Of a DNA stretch of 64,000 bases, positions 1,146-20,567 are shown piece by piece. The position numbers and the translations under genes were made by a program. Location of the stretch: NCBI RefSeq assembly GCF_023806465.1, contig NZ_JAMSLS010000002.1, positions 124,001 through 188,000 of the forward strand, in the 5' to 3' direction. Each line of letters starts with the position of its first letter. The first letter of the stretch is position 1. Under the pieces are notes generated by a model. The model was not told the DNA's origin, searched no databases, and was given only the letters and a program-made list of their open reading frames with translations. The DNA comes from Thermomicrobium sp. CFH 73360 (GTDB lineage: Bacteria > Chloroflexota > Chloroflexia > Thermomicrobiales > Thermomicrobiaceae).

Positions 1146-1763
1146 ATGCCGTACGAACTCCCACCGCTTCCGTACCCCTACGACGCGCTCGAGCCATACA
1201 TCGACGCTCGCACGATGGAGATCCATCACACAGGGCACCACGGTGCTTATGTACGCAACGTGAACGCCGCACTCGAGAAGCATCCGGAACTCCCGGCAAT
1301 GCCGATCGAGGAGCTTTTGCGTCGCATCAACGAGGTGCCAGAAGACATCCGTACGGCCGTGCGCAATAACGGTGGCGGTCATGCGAACCACACCATCTTC
1401 TGGCAGATCATGGGGCCTAATGCCGGCGGGGAGCCAACCGGTGATCTTGCGCAGGCCATCACCGAGACCTTTGGCAGCTTCCAGCAGTTTAAGGAGCAGT
1501 TCTCCGCTGCTGCCGCTGGTGTGTTCGGCTCTGGATGGGCATGGCTGGTACTGGATCAGAATGGAAAGCTCCAGATCATCACCCGGCCCAATCAGGACAG
1601 CCCATACATGGACAACCTTTATCCGGTGATGGGACTCGACGTCTGGGAGCACGCGTATTATCTCAAGTACCAGAACCGGCGGCCGGAATACATCGCGAAC
1701 TGGTGGAACGTCGTGAACTGGGACGCAGTCGCCCAGCGTTACCGCGAGGGGCTGAAGCGCTAA
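1146..1763 (+). CDS. sodA: Superoxide dismutase (Mn/Fe family)
   Basis: Converts superoxide to oxygen and hydrogen peroxide in the cytoplasm. The 205-residue product has the complete family layout. Metal ligands appear at His27, His82, Asp165 and His169 (the DVWEHAYY signature), with the alpha-hairpin N-terminal domain followed by GSGWAWLV and the NQDSPYM segment. Gln in that last segment and Gly near His82 favour a manganese or cambialistic enzyme, but metal choice is an inference. The start was set at ATG 1146 because GGGAGGG precedes it by about six bases, although the frame stays open far upstream. Apparently monocistronic, with a hairpin just past the stop. Confidence 0.97.
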
Positions 1764-1782
1764 ACCGCACCTCCACAGTGAC

Positions 1783-1814
1783 GCGGGCGCCGGGAGCATA
1801 CTCCCGGCGCCCGC
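1783..1814 (+). terminator. GC-rich perfect hairpin after sodA
   Basis: A 14-base-pair perfect stem, GCGGGCGCCGGGAG with its complement, closes a four-base CATA loop 19 bases past the sod stop. There is no T-run on the plus side (only TCTTGCTCT). It also lies just past the stop of the convergent dioxygenase gene, so it may serve both. Confidence 0.7.
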
Positions 1815-1838
1815 ATCTTGCTCTCCCCGGGAGACCGT

Positions 1839-2801
1839 TTATGACTCAACGAGTTCGATTGGTCGCAAGTTTGCTTCGATCTCCGCGCGCAGTGGCTCCA
1901 GGAACGGTGGTAACGAAAGTCTTTCGCCAAGATGCTCAACATCCTCGTCCGTCGTAAAACCTGGACCATCGGTCGCCAATTCGTAGAGTACGCCACCTGG
2001 CTCTCGGAAATAGAGCGAACGGAAGTAATAGCGGTCGATCTGCGGAGTCACTGGTATGCCAGCCCGCGCGATCCGCCCGCGCCAGGCACGATGCGTTGCA
2101 TCGTCCGGCACCCGGAATGCCACGTGATGGACGCCTCCTGCTCCGAGTTGTGCCCGCGGCAGATCCGCACGCTCTTCCACCACGACCACTGTTCCCGGTC
2201 CCCCAGGACCGGTCTCGTAGATTGCCTGACGGAACCCAACAGAGCGCTCTTCTCGTGGCCGGAAGCCGAGGACCTCCGTCAAGACATGTACCGTCGGCTC
2301 GAGAGCCCGGACAACGATCGTCACTCCGAAGATCCCCTTGATCTGGTAGCTTGCTGGCACTGGTGAACGTTCCCAGGGTCGGCCCCCTGGTACACCGCCA
2401 TCAACAACAAGCGCGAGTCGCTGTCCCTCTGGATCGCGGAACAGCAAGGCCTCACACCCCGCATACTCCCCAGGCTCGATCCCAGGAACACTGTGTCGAT
2501 TGAGCCACTCACTCCACCACGCTAGTGCTTCACGGCTGTCAACCCGCAACGCGATGCGGGCGATGTCACCGTGCCCCGGTTGATGTGGCGGAAGATGCGA
2601 CCAGTCGAAGAACGTGACATCCGTCCCTGGACTTCCAACCGCATCGGCATAAAACAGGTGATACGCTGACACATCGTCCTGGTTGACCGTCTTCTTGACA
2701 AGTCGCAGACCGAGTACCCGCGTATAGAAGCGCAAATTCTCGGCCGCTTGTCCAGTGACAGCCGTGACATGATGGATTCCCAACAATGCAAGTTCGTTCA
2801 T
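1839..2801 (-). CDS. Ring-cleaving dioxygenase of the glyoxalase/vicinal oxygen chelate superfamily (MhqO/LinE-like)
   Basis: The protein has about 320 residues and two tandem glyoxalase-type modules. The first begins with GIHHVTAVTG near the N-terminus, and the second carries GGVHHVAF and then GVLYELATDGPGF. The two His positions and the late Glu are the usual ligands for Fe(II) or Mn(II) in type I extradiol dioxygenases. Family members open hydroquinone or catechol-type rings or act on quinone adducts, and MhqO relatives are often controlled by MarR-type regulators. One such regulator lies upstream on the opposite strand. ATG 2801 was chosen because GGGAGGGAGT precedes it and the homologous region begins right after. 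Exact substrate unknown. Confidence 0.88.
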   Translation of the reverse strand: MNELALLGIHHVTAVTGQAAENLRFYTRVLGLRLVKKTVNQDDVSAYHLFYADAVGSPGTDVTFFDWSHLPPHQPGHGDIARIALRVDSREALAWWSEWLNRHSVPGIEPGEYAGCEALLFRDPEGQRLALVVDGGVPGGRPWERSPVPASYQIKGIFGVTIVVRALEPTVHVLTEVLGFRPREERSVGFRQAIYETGPGGPGTVVVVEERADLPRAQLGAGGVHHVAFRVPDDATHRAWRGRIARAGIPVTPQIDRYYFRSLYFREPGGVLYELATDGPGFTTDEDVEHLGERLSLPPFLEPLRAEIEANLRPIELVES

Positions 2802-3534
2802 CTCTGTACTCCCTCCCGGGTAACGACGTATGTCGAGTGTACCGCTCACGCCAGTCGCATGCCGTCCAGTACCCAGCACTACATTGCCCCCTGTTCATGG
2901 CTGTCATGGCGACAGGGGCGAATCAGTCACTCAGTTCCTTGTCCAAAGTGGCATCCCGCTGCTCGCCACACCTGCCCTCGACTGAATCGATGTCAAGGGA
3001 TGCACTCTCCAACCTCCCGGGGGACCATCGCGTCGCTTCGAAGGCAGCGCTCCCTTTCCCACTGCACCGATCGCCATCCGAGCAGCCAGGGAGACACCTC
3101 TCGCGTCGCACCAGAACCAGACGGACACTGTGTTCCCAGCATGCAACAGGCGCTGTATCACGAGCGACGTGTCGTCGATGCAGGCAAGGCAGCCCGGCTC
3201 AAAACCCTCTGCAAGCTCTTCTACGCTCTCTCACCTCGCAGAGTGCCAAACCTTTCAGTATTCTCGCGAGATTGTTTGGTGACCGCCTGCCATCGAGCAG
3301 TGCACCTCATACCGTGAGCTGGTCGCGGCCGCTCATCACGAAGCCGACACCTTCGTGCAGCCTGGGACGACGCATCGTACAATGCCGTTATGGAACCTAG
3401 CCTGATTCGTTTGGGCGCATTTCGGTCATGGTCGCCAAGGAGAATCACCTGCCTAGCACTCGCACCCTGGCGAGCATATGAGTACAATGGCTTCAGCATT
3501 GCTTTCGGATGGTCAGCAAGATGGGATAGAGGGG
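2802..3534. other. Intergenic stretch between divergent dioxygenase and MarR genes
   Basis: About 730 bases. Two overlapping plus-strand open frames of about 190-200 codons cover part of it, but they are rich in Ser, Arg and Pro with no domain-like pattern and no ribosome site. I treat them as chance frames. The TACAAT at 3483-3488 could be a -10 box for the MarR gene. No clear operator palindrome was identified. Confidence 0.45.
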
Positions 3535-14735: not shown

Positions 14736-15431
14736 ATGGATAGAGTCGTAGCGACCTGCGATGAAGCCGTCGCCGATATTCCAAATGGCGCATTCATCAT
14801 GATCGGTGGATTTGGGCCACCAGGTATCCCGGTGAACCTCGTTCAGGCGCTTCGTCGCCGCCGTTTGCGCGATCTTGTGCTGATCTACTGCGGCGGGGGC
14901 ACAGAGGAGGATGGCATCGGCGGCTTGATCGCCGATGGTGCAGTACGCAAGCTGATCACCTCGTACCCTACCCATCCCGGCGCATCCGCTGTGCGAGAGC
15001 GTTATCTCCGCGAGGAGATCGAGCTTGAAGTCCTTCCCCAAGGGACATTCGTCGAGCGGATCCGTGCAGCCGGAGCCGGTCTCGGCGGGTTCTATACCCC
15101 GACCGGAGTTGGTACCGAACTTGCGGAAGGGAAGGAAGTACGGATCATCGACGGACGTGCGTATCTCTTCGAGTTGCCGCTCCGGGCTGACTACGCATTG
15201 ATCAAGGCCTACCGGGCCGATCGCTGGGGCAACCTGACGTATCGCCGCACGATGCGCAATTTCAATCCGATCATGGCCACGGCAGCGAATATCGTGATCG
15301 CGGAAGTCGATGAACTGGTCCCTGTCGGTGGGCTTTCGCCCGAGGAGATCGAGACTCCATGCATTTTTGTCGATCGAGTAGTCGTGGTGCCACGTGAGGA
15401 AATCCGCCGCGTGGCACGAGAGTCACGGTGA
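14736..15431 (+). CDS. 3-oxoacid/acyl CoA-transferase, subunit A
   Basis: Alpha subunit (231 residues) of a family I CoA-transferase. IPNGAFIMIGGFGPPGIPVNLVQAL near the N-terminus is the usual glycine-rich CoA-binding loop, and GVGTELAEGKEVRIIDGR and ELPLRADYALIKAYRADRWGN match the ScoA/PcaI/GctA type. The enzyme moves CoA between acyl-CoA and a free acid through a glutamyl-CoA intermediate held on the partner subunit. It is the first gene of the operon, 44 bases past the promoter, and subunit B follows after 11 bases. The acid substrate cannot be assigned. Confidence 0.93.
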   Translation: MDRVVATCDEAVADIPNGAFIMIGGFGPPGIPVNLVQALRRRRLRDLVLIYCGGGTEEDGIGGLIADGAVRKLITSYPTHPGASAVRERYLREEIELEVLPQGTFVERIRAAGAGLGGFYTPTGVGTELAEGKEVRIIDGRAYLFELPLRADYALIKAYRADRWGNLTYRRTMRNFNPIMATAANIVIAEVDELVPVGGLSPEEIETPCIFVDRVVVVPREEIRRVARESR

Positions 15432-15442
15432 GGTGGACAGCA

Positions 15443-16135
15443 ATGCCCTTGACTCGTGAGGGAATCGCCTTTCGGATCGCGCGCGACCTCCCTGACGGGA
15501 GTTTCGTGAATCTCGGTGTCGGCATTCCCACACTTGTCGCCCGTTTCGTTCCACCCGATCGGACCATCCTTATTCACAGTGAGAACGGAATCCTGGGAGC
15601 CGGCCCCAAAGCAGCTCCGGGGGAAGAGGATCCGGATCTGGTGAACGCCAACGGCGACTACGTCACGCTCATGCCGGGTGCCAGCCTCTTCGACCATGCC
15701 CTCTCGTTCACGATGATCCGCGGTGGGCATCTGACACACGCTGTGCTCGGTGCGCTTCAAGTCTCGCGTCGTGGGGACCTGGCGAATTGGCGAATACCTG
15801 GGCCGCGCGTTCCTGGGGTCGGTGGGGCGATGGACATCGCCGTTGGTGCACAACAGGTCTGGGTGGCCACGACGCATACCACCGATCAGGGAGAGCCGAA
15901 GATCGTCGAGGAATGCACCTACCCACTTACGGCAGCGCGCTGTGTGCGGCGGATCTACACCGACCTTGCGGTGTTGCGGGTTGAGGGCGAGCACCTTGTC
16001 CTCGAAGAACTCGCTCCCGGCGTGACGGTCGAGGAGGTGCTCCAGCGAACTAGCACACGACTCACCGTGCCGGATGGAGTTCCGACCATGGAAGTCCCAG
16101 CCGAGTTCGCGGGCATCCCGCTGCTCGCCTCCTAA
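15443..16135 (+). CDS. 3-oxoacid/acyl CoA-transferase, subunit B
   Basis: Beta subunit (230 residues). The catalytic glutamate lies in IHSENGILGAGP, preceded by VNLGVGIPTLVARFVP, and the middle contains GGHLTHAVLGALQVS and PGVGGAMDIAVGAQQVWV, all standard for ScoB/PcaJ-like subunits. The frame also opens at GTG 15428 overlapping the subunit A stop, but the GAGGT site and the start of homology favour ATG 15443. It completes the transferase with the preceding gene. Confidence 0.93.
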   Translation: MPLTREGIAFRIARDLPDGSFVNLGVGIPTLVARFVPPDRTILIHSENGILGAGPKAAPGEEDPDLVNANGDYVTLMPGASLFDHALSFTMIRGGHLTHAVLGALQVSRRGDLANWRIPGPRVPGVGGAMDIAVGAQQVWVATTHTTDQGEPKIVEECTYPLTAARCVRRIYTDLAVLRVEGEHLVLEELAPGVTVEEVLQRTSTRLTVPDGVPTMEVPAEFAGIPLLAS

Positions 16136-16195: not shown

Positions 16196-16465
16196 ATGAG
16201 TGCTTCGCCGATGATCATCCAGGAAATCGATCGCGCCCTTGATCGGATTAGAGCCGGCCTTGCGCCAGACGGTTTCGAGCTACGGGTTGAACGCGTATCC
16301 GAAGATGGCGTCGTGGAGCTCGTACTCCAGGCTCTCCCCGACGCGTGTCTTGACTGTCTCGTTCCCGATCAGCTGCTACACGCGATGCTGCAACAATGTA
16401 TTGCGCCCGTCTATCCAGAGCTACGCGAGGTGCGGCTCGAGAAGCGGTTGCCAGAGGAGGGATAG
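16196..16465 (+). CDS. Small NifU C-terminal-like protein with CxxC motif
   Basis: An 89-residue protein with the outline of the NifU C-terminal (Nfu) domain. An N-terminal helix (IDRALDRIRAGLAP) leads into two strands with DGVVELVLQ, then the motif ACLDCLVP with two cysteines two residues apart, a helix, and a closing strand REVRLEKR. Nfu domains carry iron-sulfur clusters or act as thiol-redox modules. Start ATG 16196 is preceded by AAGGGGAAAAG. GTG 16139 is possible but has no ribosome site. The stop lies two bases before the selenoprotein start, so the two are probably translated together, which suggests a shared redox role (inference). Confidence 0.65.
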   Translation: MSASPMIIQEIDRALDRIRAGLAPDGFELRVERVSEDGVVELVLQALPDACLDCLVPDQLLHAMLQQCIAPVYPELREVRLEKRLPEEG

Positions 16466-16467
16466 CC

Positions 16468-17037
16468 ATGCCGGTACTTGTCGACCCGACCGGTCAAACG
16501 ACTCAGCTAGTGAAGAGCCGTGCGCCACGCACGAGACGCTCCTTGCGCGGCGCGCGAGTCTGCATGATCGACAACGGGAAGAAGAACGCGGACCTCTTGC
16601 TCCAGGCGATCGGTGCACTCTTGCGCGAGCGCTACGGAGTAGCTGAGGTGGTGATGCACCGGAAGCCGAGCATTTCCGTCCCGGTCGAACCGCAGGTGGT
16701 CGCGGACCTCAAGACCCAGTGCGACATCGCAATCGCTGCGGTCGGTGACTGAGGATCCTGTAGTGCGGCCAGTGTGGCCGATGCGATTCGCTTCGAAGAA
16801 CAGGGTGTACCGGCTGCGGCCATCATCACCGACGCGTTTCGAACCACGGCAGATGCGATGGCACAGACGCAGGGGATGCCGGGTTACCCATACGCCGTGA
16901 TCCCGCACCCCGTGAGTAGTCTGAGCCCAGAGGAAGTGCGACAGCGCGCTGAGCAGGTGCTGCCGGAGGTGTTGCGGCTGCTTGGTATTGAGGAAGGTGT
17001 CGAGGAGGCGGAAGATGAGCGTGCAGCCGACAGCTGA
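16468..17037 (+). CDS. UGSC-family selenoprotein, read through an in-frame UGA at codon 95
   Basis: With UGA at 16750-16752 read as selenocysteine, this gives 189 residues. Residues 29-94 form an alternating strand/helix domain (ARVCMIDNGKKNADLLLQAI, then CDIAIAAVGD). The active motif is U95-G-S-C98, then SVADAIRFEEQGVPAAAIITDAF and PYAVIPHPVSSLSPEE. The same frame continues after the UGA with normal composition, and the downstream half has no ribosome site of its own. GAGGAGG lies seven bases before ATG 16468. The motif matches the UGSC (seleno)protein family, and the region after it recalls the Sec-containing B subunits of glycine and proline reductases (from memory). Proposed role: a thiol/selenol redox or reductase centre. 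The 3' end overlaps the next gene by 23 bases. Confidence 0.88.
16763..16784 (+). promoter_or_regulatory. Candidate bacterial SECIS hairpin
   Basis: CGGCC (16766-16770) pairs with GGCCG (16776-16780) around the loop AGUGU. The stem extends by GUG/UGC past a bulged A. The apical loop lies 19-23 bases after the UGA and contains GU, as in known SelB-binding elements. The elongation complex SelB-GTP-Sec-tRNA would dock here. selA, selB, selC and selD are not in this window. Confidence 0.65.
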
Positions 17038-18067
17038 ACCAACGCTGGAAGCCGTACGGCACGCTCGCGAGGCGATCGAGTACTGCTACGAGCGCAGCTG
17101 GACGGACGGCTTGCCTGTTGTTCCACCAGCTGAGGAGTTCGTGGAAGAGTTCTTGGCTGTCGTCGACCGCGATCCCGAGGAGGTAGTGATCGAGCAGGAA
17201 CATCTTGGTCGCAAGTGCACGGTCCGTCTCGCTGCCGCCAACGCCGTGATGGCCGGTTGCAAGCCAGAATATTTCCCAGTTGTCCTCGCTGCGCTCGAAG
17301 CGCTGAATCGGCTGCCAGGTAGCCGCGGCCTCCTCCAGAGCACGACAGGACAGGCTGTCTTTGTTGTCGTCAACGGTCCCATCAGAAACCAGCTCGGCTT
17401 CAACACAAAGGACAATCTGTTCAGCCCTGGCGACCGCCCCAACGCGACGGTCGGGCGCGCCATTCGGCTGGTGATTATGAACGCGCTCGGCATCCGGCCA
17501 CACGAGTTCGATCAAAGCACACACGGGCAACCGGGGAAGTTCAGCCTCTGCATCGCCGAGAACGAAGAAGAGAGTCCGTGGGATCCACTGCACGTCGAGC
17601 GCGGTTTCGCACGTGACGAGAGCACGGTCACGGTTGGCCTCGTGCGCGGTACGATGCAGGTCGAGCAACGCGACTCCAAAGAACCTGAGGTGATCCTGGA
17701 GACGATTGCCGACTCCATGTCCTACGCCGGAACCTACTTCCCGACACCACGCGGGCATGCTGGGATCGTCGTCATGGGGCCCGAGCACGCGCAGCTCATC
17801 GCCGCGGCAGGCTGGAGCAAAGCGCGGGCCCGCGAGTACCTGTGGGAGCATTTCGGTCGGCCAGCAGGCTTGCTCCGCCGTCTCGCTAAGGGGGCACTGC
17901 TCGATCCTTCACTACCAGACGATGCCTTTGTCCGCTTCGCGCACAGTCCGGAGACAATTCTCATTGTCGTCGCGGGAGCACGAAATGCGGGCATTTCAAC
18001 AGTCTGCCCGACATTTATTGGGCAGCAAGTGACGGTACCGATCCGCATGAAGTCCACGTTCCACTGA
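17015..18067 (+). CDS. Protein of unknown function next to the UGSC selenoprotein
   Basis: A soluble 350-residue protein that I cannot assign to a named family. It opens with a helix containing EYCYERSWTDGLPVVPP, then RKCTVRLAAANAVMAGCKPEYFPVVLAAL with cysteines at 68 and 82. A Gly/Asn-rich middle (VVVNGPIRNQLGFNTKDN, ATVGRAIRLVIMNALG) follows, then a C-terminal part with IVVMGPEHAQLIAAAGWSK. The motifs look conserved rather than random and suggest an enzyme. Start ATG 17015 has GAGGAGG seven bases upstream and lies inside the end of the selenoprotein gene, so translation of the two is coupled. A partner of the selenoprotein is the natural guess, without direct proof. Confidence 0.8.
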   Translation: MSVQPTAEPTLEAVRHAREAIEYCYERSWTDGLPVVPPAEEFVEEFLAVVDRDPEEVVIEQEHLGRKCTVRLAAANAVMAGCKPEYFPVVLAALEALNRLPGSRGLLQSTTGQAVFVVVNGPIRNQLGFNTKDNLFSPGDRPNATVGRAIRLVIMNALGIRPHEFDQSTHGQPGKFSLCIAENEEESPWDPLHVERGFARDESTVTVGLVRGTMQVEQRDSKEPEVILETIADSMSYAGTYFPTPRGHAGIVVMGPEHAQLIAAAGWSKARAREYLWEHFGRPAGLLRRLAKGALLDPSLPDDAFVRFAHSPETILIVVAGARNAGISTVCPTFIGQQVTVPIRMKSTFH

Positions 18068-18113: not shown

Positions 18114-18923
18114 ATGACCAGCGAGTATTGGCTGGAAAGCATGCTTGCTGTTGTAACGAGGCCGGGGCAAGGTAAGAACGAGTGCGGAACGCGAATCGCA
18201 CGCGGTCTCGCACGACATGGAGCTCCGGCCGACATCAACGATTTGGCCAAGGAACTCCTGCAAGCGAGACTCGATCAGCCCCGGAGTCGCGGTGACGACA
18301 CCTGGCGGATACCCGGCGAACTCGCTGCTGCTCACGGCGTCCGATATGGCAGTAAGGCTCCTGTGGACGGGCTGTTTCCGGGTGATGAGCGACTCTCGCA
18401 TGTGCACGGTCGTTGTCTGATCGGTGTCAATTGGAACGATCCATTCTCTCCGAACCGAGCAGCGCTCACAAACAGAATTCTCCCCGGACTTGATCATGTC
18501 ATCAGCATCGGCTCGCTGGCGAGGTGGCGAACCGCTTCCCGCGGCCCGATGGACACGACCACGAAGAGCGGCCTCCTCAACCTGACACAGCACATGGTAT
18601 CCGAGGGAGCTTCATTGAGCATGACCATAGGTATCCTGTTGCCAACCGGCATGTTCCGTCCGCGCATCTTTCGGGCCCAACTTGCCCTGTCTTGTCGTGA
18701 GAGCAGTTGTTCGGGGCTGCTCGACTCCGCGGAGAGGGGGAAACTGGTCGCGTCTCCCTGGCGCCGCCACGTGAATGCCGCTTCCGGTATCCCACTCGAT
18801 CGGAGGGGCAGCAACTCAATGAGGAGCATCGTGGAGTCCACGGTCGGCAGCGGAAGGATGAAGGTTGAACTCCACAGGAGCGATTGTCGCAGTCGATCGG
18901 AGGCGAGAGAGAGGAGACGATGA
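18114..18923 (+). CDS. Uncertain ORF filling the gap inside the operon
   Basis: An uninterrupted frame of 269 codons occupies almost the whole 850-base space between two operon genes. In its favour, GGAAGG lies about eight bases before ATG 18114, and its TGA overlaps the ATG of the next gene (ATGA at 18920-18923), as in coupled genes. Against it, the product is rich in Arg and Ser (especially the C-terminal third), has scattered Trp and Cys, and shows no domain I recognise. It may be a fast-evolving gene, a decayed remnant or a chance frame. No minus-strand alternative is more convincing. Confidence 0.3.
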   Translation: MTSEYWLESMLAVVTRPGQGKNECGTRIARGLARHGAPADINDLAKELLQARLDQPRSRGDDTWRIPGELAAAHGVRYGSKAPVDGLFPGDERLSHVHGRCLIGVNWNDPFSPNRAALTNRILPGLDHVISIGSLARWRTASRGPMDTTTKSGLLNLTQHMVSEGASLSMTIGILLPTGMFRPRIFRAQLALSCRESSCSGLLDSAERGKLVASPWRRHVNAASGIPLDRRGSNSMRSIVESTVGSGRMKVELHRSDCRSRSEARERRR

Positions 18924-19738
18924 ATTCACAGCAGTTGTGCAACCTTCACGGTATGGTCGCGCTCGTGACTGGTGCGGGTGGTGGTTCCCGGGGCGGACTC
19001 GGGCCGGTCATTGCGCGTACGCTCGCTCGAGCTGGTGCGAGAGTCGCCGTCAACGATCGTACCGCGGAGTGGACACAGGCAACCGTCGAGGAACTCCGGC
19101 AACTTGGTCTCGACGTCGAAGGTTTTCCAGCTGACGTGGCTGATCCTGAGCAGGCCGATCGCTTGGTGCAGAGCGTGATCGCACGCTTCGGACAATTGGA
19201 CATCCTCGTCAACAAGGCCGAAGCGCACGGCAGCGGTCACCGTTCTGATCAGGTGACGGACGACGAATGGGAACACGCGCTCGCAGTCAACGTGCACGCT
19301 CCGTTCTACCTGAGCCGCGCCGCGGTCCGGCACATGCGGACACGCCGGTTCGGCCGGATCATCAATGTCTCCAATATTTCGGCGATCCGGACAAGCGTGC
19401 TCAACGGGGTTGCCTACGTCGCAACCAAGGAGGCACTGTACGGCTTCACGAGGCATCTCGCAATCGAAGTTGCTCAGCACGGCATCACGGTCAATGCTCT
19501 TCTCCCTGGCTTCATTCTCACGCCAAAACTTGCCGGTGAATGGCCGGCAGAGCGAATTGAGAGGCTCGCAGCGACGGTGCCGGCCTTACGCGCCGGCACG
19601 CCGGACGAGGTAGCAGCACTTGTTGCCTTCCTCGCCAGCCGTGAGGCCGATTACATCACGGGAGCTGCCATCCCGATCGATGGAGCGGTTTCCGTCGTAC
19701 CGGGCGGTCGCGCTGCTCCCGAGTCAGCATTCGTATGA
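18920..19738 (+). CDS. Short-chain dehydrogenase/reductase
   Basis: A 272-residue NAD(P)-dependent oxidoreductase with a Rossmann fold. The nucleotide loop is TGAGGGSRGGLG near the N-terminus, the catalytic Ser lies in INVSNISAIR, and the Tyr/Lys pair in VAYVATKEAL. The PGFILTPK segment follows. The normally conserved NNAG tetrad reads NKAE (in ILVNKAEAHG), which is odd and could change cofactor contacts. The neighbouring paralogue keeps NNA. GAGAGGAG precedes ATG 18920. It probably reduces or oxidises a 3-hydroxyacyl or similar CoA ester with the CoA-transferase. Confidence 0.9.
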   Translation: MNSQQLCNLHGMVALVTGAGGGSRGGLGPVIARTLARAGARVAVNDRTAEWTQATVEELRQLGLDVEGFPADVADPEQADRLVQSVIARFGQLDILVNKAEAHGSGHRSDQVTDDEWEHALAVNVHAPFYLSRAAVRHMRTRRFGRIINVSNISAIRTSVLNGVAYVATKEALYGFTRHLAIEVAQHGITVNALLPGFILTPKLAGEWPAERIERLAATVPALRAGTPDEVAALVAFLASREADYITGAAIPIDGAVSVVPGGRAAPESAFV

Positions 19739-19751
19739 CAGGAGCTGATCG

Positions 19752-20567
19752 ATGGCACGACTAGCAGGTATGGTCGCGCTGGTCACCGGTGCCGGAGGCG
19801 GTGAGATGGGCGGTGGCGGCGCAGGCATCGCCCGTGCTCTTGCCGCAGAAGGTGCTGTGGTTGCAGTGAACGATTTGCACAAGGAGTACGCTCAGGCAAC
19901 TGTCGAGCAGATCATCAGCAGTGGCGGAGAAGCATTCAGCGTACCTGGGGACGTGTCTGACCCTCGACAAGCGACCGCGATGGTGCGGACGGTCATCGAG
20001 CGCTGTGGTCGCCTCGACATCCTGGTGAACAACGCGGCCCGATTGGGTCGCTCTCCAGCCGTCGAGCGGATGTCGGACGACGAGTGGCTCAGCTACCTTG
20101 CAGTGAATCTGTCCGGCCCGTTCTACATGAGTCGTGCTGCCTTGCCGCAGATGATGCAACAGGAATATGGTCGCATCATCAACATTGGCTCGCTGGCAGC
20201 GCTTCGCTCAAGTTTGAACGGTGGTGCTGGATACACGACATCAAAGCGCGGGCTCCTCGGCTTGACACGCCAAATGGCTGCCGAGTTTTACTCGTATAAC
20301 ATCACAGTGAATGCCCTTTTGCCTGCAGGTATTCTGGGAGGTCGCATGCGGGCCGATATGGGGCCGCAGGCGGATGCACTCGTCCGCGCTCGACGCTGGG
20401 CACTTCCGGACGAACTTGGGAAAATCTGCGCCTATCTCGCAAGCCCAGAGGCCCACTTGATCACTGCAGCGGTGATCGTTGTGCCCGGGGTGAACGCGAC
20501 CGGTCTTGGCGATTTTGCCCAGTACCGCGCTATGGCGAAGCAGATCGGCAAAGACATTGGCGAATGA
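19752..20567 (+). CDS. Short-chain dehydrogenase/reductase
   Basis: A second SDR, 271 residues, clearly related to the preceding gene. It has TGAGGGEMGGGGAG for cofactor binding, VNDLHKEYAQATVEQI at the position that usually sets NAD versus NADP preference, ILVNNAARLG, INIGSLAALRSS with the catalytic Ser, and AGYTTSKRGLLGLTRQ with Tyr/Lys. The two genes are 13 bases apart and look like a tandem duplication with divergence. They may form a hetero-oligomer. It is the last gene of the operon, followed directly by a hairpin. Confidence 0.92.
   Translation: MARLAGMVALVTGAGGGEMGGGGAGIARALAAEGAVVAVNDLHKEYAQATVEQIISSGGEAFSVPGDVSDPRQATAMVRTVIERCGRLDILVNNAARLGRSPAVERMSDDEWLSYLAVNLSGPFYMSRAALPQMMQQEYGRIINIGSLAALRSSLNGGAGYTTSKRGLLGLTRQMAAEFYSYNITVNALLPAGILGGRMRADMGPQADALVRARRWALPDELGKICAYLASPEAHLITAAVIVVPGVNATGLGDFAQYRAMAKQIGKDIGE

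Follow-up and report, generated by a model that had tools for sequence, protein, structure and literature searches.

A UGSC-family gene with an in-frame UGA, its companion gene and a candidate multi-component redox enzyme in Thermomicrobium sp. CFH 73360

Background

The selenocysteine (Sec) form of the UGSC family was first reported in 2008, with a suggested thioredoxin-like fold (PMC2398784). The family (PF24696, NF041046) is marked by a U-G-S-C motif whose first position is Sec or Cys, and the protein analysed here matches it over the full length. The Global Ocean Sampling paper contains a UGSC/Unknown_1 fusion, in which a UGSC domain is joined to a second conserved domain (PMC2398784). A published function for UGSC was not found in our literature search.

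Another described system with Sec at the same place is GrdB (of glycine/sarcosine/betaine reductase) and PrdB, family PF07355. The Sec half, in which they resemble UGSC, comprises a strand, a UGSC/UGTC loop, a helix, E-x-x-G-[IL]-P and then [IV]-x-H-P. UGSC differs in that only about 90 columns align, the protein is half the size, PF07355 is not matched and the partner looks unrelated.

Here we analyse a UGSC gene of Thermomicrobium sp. CFH 73360. The window (the whole stretch of DNA analysed) comprises 64,000 nucleotides, and all features named below lie on its plus strand. The gene is a member of the family catalogued since 2008 and is recognised by current annotation models; the protein itself is no different from described members. 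What looks new is its near-obligate companion; the analysis adds a frequent Nfu-like protein, a flavodoxin-like predicted fold and a putative remote kinship with GrdB.

Results and discussion

The gene and its in-frame TGA

The UGSC gene (16468..17037) begins with ATG 16468 behind the ribosome-binding site AGGAGG (16455..16460) and encodes 189 amino acids when its TGA is read through. The sole in-frame stop before 17035 is the TGA at 16750-16752 (codon 95); the terminal TGA occupies 17035-17037. A first-pass annotation, made from the sequence alone, had given exactly these positions for the start, the single interruption and the end, and its reading of the motif as GD-U-GSC is equally correct (residues 93-98, GDUGSC). 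The UGA would thus supply Sec95, the first position of U-x-x-C, a placement that follows the Sec/Cys column of the homologues; the second position is Cys98 (codon 16759-16761), the putative resolving residue.

Similar-sized stretches or frame pairs separated by TGA occur 51 times in the window, so the geometry of the reading frames alone is no evidence for Sec. The evidence lies in homology, as the joined protein exceeds the curated cut-offs of two family models across the TGA. It matches PF24696 ('UGSC family') with 212.7 bits (cut-off 25; residues 4-173, model positions 2-171 of 172) and NF041046 ('UGSC family (seleno)protein') with 167.8 bits (cut-off 125; residues 28-172, model positions 2-146 of 147). 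The earlier proposal of a UGSC-type (seleno)protein with Sec or Cys at this place is borne out by these matches and by the Sec and Cys homologues described below.

The TGA is found at the same place, with the frame kept, in four same-genus genomes compared with the window. Downstream of it the dN/dS ratio is about 0.02-0.05 against three of these genomes (dS 1.3-2.0) and 0 against the closest one (dS 0.05), and in the same-genus comparison it is lower than upstream. These ratios indicate that the segment beyond the TGA is under strongly purifying selection.

Sec and Cys homologues

In a sample of 400 genomes from the window's phylum, the UGSC family is present in 41 genomes with 88 matches in total. 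Exactly one in-frame TGA is seen in 83 of the 88 matches (two of the remaining five are fragments), a recurrence that removes the earlier worry about a sequencing error at this codon. In an alignment of 19 proteins (that of the window plus 18 phylum relatives) a single column holds the TGA, and both U95 and C98 are invariant. Three genomes (G209, G222 and G379) hold seven or eight UGSC paralogues each, nearly all with an in-frame TGA, which is an unusually high number for a single selenoprotein family.

Cys-form relatives were found at 164 loci in a scan of bacterial genomes. The best 80 of these are nearly all actinobacterial and align mostly across residues 1-176 of the UGSC protein. All 65 aligned actinobacterial Cys forms have Cys at the Sec95 column; this residue was required by the search pattern, and its frequency is therefore no evidence. 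Full-length homology is independent of that pattern, so the existence of full-length Cys homologues does count. The database comparison that had been proposed for the fused protein thus yielded full-length relatives of both kinds, TGA forms within the phylum and Cys forms in actinobacteria, and none of the relatives found ends at residue 94, as the first-pass annotation had considered. The second Cys of UxxC is retained in nearly all members. A scan of viral contigs returned no relatives of the UGSC protein.

Sec machinery and SECIS hairpin

The host genome (99.7% complete) contains selA, selB, selC and selD, and the objection that the Sec machinery might be missing falls away. Both selB and selD score above their cut-offs, and selC encodes a tRNA-Sec with anticodon UCA. 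The host selD (L015 1501-2436, C1:322736) has an in-frame TGA of its own in the stretch SCAGUAGK near the protein start, and its product is probably a selenoprotein as well. Across the phylum selB is above cut-off in 306 of the 400 genomes, a distribution too broad to discriminate.

Just 3' of the UGA we find a bacterial SECIS hairpin core (16766..16780, CGGCC-AGUGU-GGCCG) with a 5-bp stem (16766-16770/16776-16780) and the loop AGUGU. Across 23 phylum Sec genes 97.4% of the stem cells are paired (13-58% for slid controls), compensatory changes occur at four of the five stem pairs and the GU of the loop is invariant. The geometry comprises a stem of 5-6 bp, a loop A-GU-GU or GUG and a loop start 18-19 nt past the UGA. 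It fits the bacterial SECIS model of a 2026 review, which has G at loop position 1 or 2 and the loop 16-37 nt past the UGA (PMC13188914).

The minimum free energy of the region is -14.3 for 45 nt. Raw values of this kind fail to distinguish Sec genes from Cys genes (p = 0.94); after normalisation by codon shuffles the Sec genes have a mean z of -1.2 against 0.0 for the Cys homologues (p = 7e-6). An Rfam search over 6 kb gave no SECIS or other RNA above threshold.

Taken together, the family match across the TGA, the Sec machinery, the dN/dS ratios and the covarying SECIS make it almost certain, as judged from sequence comparison, that the gene encodes a genuine selenoprotein with Sec95 inserted at the UGA, as originally proposed.

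The companion and other neighbours

In the window's genus the gene order is kept: CoA-transferase A, CoA-transferase B, Nfu-like, UGSC, companion and SDRs. The CoA-transferase subunits A (14736..15431; TIGR02429, 280 bits) and B (15428..16135; TIGR02428, 295 bits) lie upstream and two SDR-family dehydrogenases (18926..19738 and 19752..20567; both PF13561/PF00106) downstream, all conserved in the genus. Between the companion and these SDRs the window has a further intact frame (18114-18923, plus strand), which aligns from end to end with a sister genome's SDR at 38% identity. Here the Tyr of the SDR YxxxK site is lost (MDTTTK against YTTAK); the counterpart in a near relative (L029) is in the same state, and that in L028 is a normal SDR. 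From its sequence, this SDR is probably decaying or non-catalytic.

The companion gene (17015..18067) encodes 350 amino acids and shares its first 23 bases with the end of the UGSC gene. The protein matches no family in Pfam or NCBIfam; its conserved residues include D31-G32-L33-P34, C82 and the stretch ENEEESPW. A homologue is adjacent or near in 77 of the 80 actinobacterial loci (the best 80 of 164), mostly directly downstream and overlapping by a few bases, and 28 of the 32 phylum loci examined have one within their short flanks, several of them as fusions. In one of these (L026) the N-terminal part is UGSC and the C-terminal part is 40% identical to the companion over 229 residues (E = 6e-37); L058, L059 and L060 are further UGSC-companion fusions. 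They resemble the UGSC/Unknown_1 fusion in joining a UGSC domain to a second conserved domain.

In the fusion proteins L026 and L059, U-S-T-C replaces U-G-S-C. The L058 fusion (1336-3321) starts with a Tat-like motif (SRRDFL) and an LSGC that resembles a lipobox, which suggests an exported lipoprotein with Sec. Tandem duplicates are also seen: L117 has a second UGSC-companion pair in the locus, and L079 a second companion.

Among the 400 phylum genomes UGSC is present in 41 and the companion in 41, with both in 40 (table 40/1/1/358; UGSC only in G322, companion only in G166). The association is strong by Fisher's test (p = 8.5e-53), a test that ignores phylogeny and sampling. One same-genus genome (G004, 99% complete) has neither gene. 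Synteny, fusions and co-occurrence together argue that UGSC and the companion very probably function as partners, the companion being a subunit or domain; that it is the substrate-binding subunit is our guess.

Directly upstream of UGSC lies the gene for a small Nfu-like protein (16196..16465, 89 amino acids) with a C-x-x-C-L motif (CLDCLVP), which joins the UGSC-companion pair in the window's genus. Its likeness to the Nfu/NifU C-terminal domain (PF01106) consists of a weak match over the whole domain and the CxxC motif; it differs by a score below the cut-off (20.5 bits against 27), by the CxxCLVP context and by its UGSC/companion neighbourhood. Homologues occur at 41 of the best 80 of 164 actinobacterial loci, mostly right behind the companion and all with C-x-x-C-L conserved; near the other loci of this set, almost half, there is none, and the short flanks examined at distant phylum loci did not reveal the gene either. 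On balance we regard the protein as a functional component of the module, and a role as electron donor or cofactor carrier is plausible.

For the wider surroundings of the same 80 actinobacterial loci we used frame-aware gene calls, as plain clustering of open reading frames was swamped by spurious high-GC frames. A relative of NDMA-dependent alcohol dehydrogenase is near 41 loci, followed by IclR-type regulators (32), amidohydrolase_2 (30), SDRs (29), aldehyde dehydrogenases (27) and oligopeptide-type ABC transporters (about 25); these are raw counts that carry no background control. The gene content suggests that UGSC loci serve the catabolism of an organic substrate.

Predicted fold and possible remote kinship with GrdB

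The UGSC model (pLDDT 90.7) is a parallel five-strand alternating alpha/beta structure, a flavodoxin-like Rossmannoid, with Sec95 between the hydrophobic strand 87-91 and helix 96-111. The fold matches listed are receiver, TIR, PurE, FMN-reductase and flavodoxin-like proteins, none clearly above the rest. The predicted fold does not appear to fit the thioredoxin-like proposal (PMC2398784). The companion was modelled with similar confidence (pLDDT 90.8); a structure search (Foldseek, VIA) gave no clear relative, only weak mixed matches to fumarase, cyclic amide hydrolase and chorismate mutase (best Z 6.1). Searching the PDB sequences with the UGSC, companion and GrdB profiles revealed no relative.

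With hhalign, about 90 columns of UGSC can be aligned to the Sec-bearing part of GrdB (P = 4.1e-6, probability 87%), so that Sec is paired with Sec and HP with HP. When the Sec/Cys column is masked P is 8.8e-5 (probability 60%), against 0.028 for the best of 60 shuffled profiles. No match to PF07355 was obtained among 66 UGSC proteins at E values up to 5. The GRDB model PF07355 apparently stops right before the Sec codon, leaving the post-UGA half of GrdB uncovered; in the loci with PF07355 matches (L141-L144) the read-through extends into a further conserved stretch. The first-pass annotation had compared a segment of the protein with the B subunits of glycine/proline reductase. What stands of this is a putative remote relationship between the Sec halves of UGSC and GrdB, which has support from the profile comparison; membership in PF07355 is unsupported.

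A candidate mechanism and its alternatives

The reading that best accounts for these results is a multi-component redox enzyme, and as a whole we consider it probable. The SECIS hairpin would recruit SelB and the Sec-tRNA, by which the UGA would be decoded as Sec95. UGSC would be the catalytic redox subunit (selenol or thiol) of a two- or three-component enzyme, with Sec95, paired with Cys98, at the N-terminus of a helix within its flavodoxin-like fold, and the companion would bind the substrate and complete the active site. If the chemistry parallels that of GrdB/PrdB, the selenolate might attack a substrate held by the partner, after which Cys98 would resolve the intermediate; the Nfu-like CxxC protein, as dithiol donor, may then re-reduce the selenenylsulfide. 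Such GrdB-like nucleophilic chemistry is a tentative proposal, drawn by analogy, and the substrate, the chemistry and the electron donor of the module are likewise what we infer.

A stricter version would make the protein a GrdB/PrdB-like reductase that performs reductive C-N or C-X cleavage on a substrate carried by a pyruvoyl-type partner. The profile relation of the Sec halves, which extends to the Sec/Cys position and the HP segment, speaks for it, whereas PF07355 is not matched and the companion, which matches no Pfam family, has no match to a glycine/proline reductase subunit. Moreover, the Stickland reductases are anaerobic, while many UGSC hosts are actinobacteria and the named genera among these include aerobes. 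We think this version unlikely.

Of similarly low probability is a selenol/thiol carrier or transferase that is no net reductase, for instance in a seleno- or thioester activation that feeds the CoA-transferase and dehydrogenases. Such a role would suit the neighbouring CoA-transferase, NDMA-dependent alcohol dehydrogenase, aldehyde dehydrogenase and SDR genes, but there is no acyltransferase signature, and the nearly universal conservation of the second Cys in UxxC suits a redox cycle.

The UxxC motif is typical of thiol oxidoreductases, and UGSC might accordingly be a free-standing thiol:disulfide or peroxide-detoxifying selenoprotein with the thioredoxin-like fold assumed in the 2008 metagenome paper, its neighbours being incidental. 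This is hard to reconcile with a high-confidence predicted five-strand flavodoxin-like Rossmannoid, with a near-obligate and at times fused companion and with operons of catabolic rather than stress type, and we judge it improbable as well.

Finally, a true stop or a sequencing error at the TGA (leaving two short genes or one broken gene) is extremely improbable: TGA-separated pairs are common by chance, as the 51 in the window illustrate, but this reading is refuted by a TGA at the same place in most phylum relatives and in four further same-genus genomes, by the dN/dS of 0.02-0.05 past it, by the SECIS covariation and by the Sec machinery.

Conclusions

Within the multi-component redox enzyme favoured here, the partner module appears to be undescribed in the literature searched, barring a possible overlap with the UGSC/Unknown_1 fusion (PMC2398784). 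A more specific picture, which we put forward tentatively, is that UGSC, the companion and the Nfu-like protein make up a selenoenzyme that is so far undescribed, occurs as Cys versions in actinobacteria and is distantly related to GrdB in its catalytic half; with NDMA-dependent alcohol dehydrogenases, SDRs and CoA-transferases it may serve to catabolise an organic substrate.

With a near-obligate, sometimes fused partner and a small CxxC protein, UGSC now belongs to a small, defined group, two or three proteins in all, which is open to co-purification and assay. The Cys forms in culturable actinobacteria make the module testable without Sec machinery.
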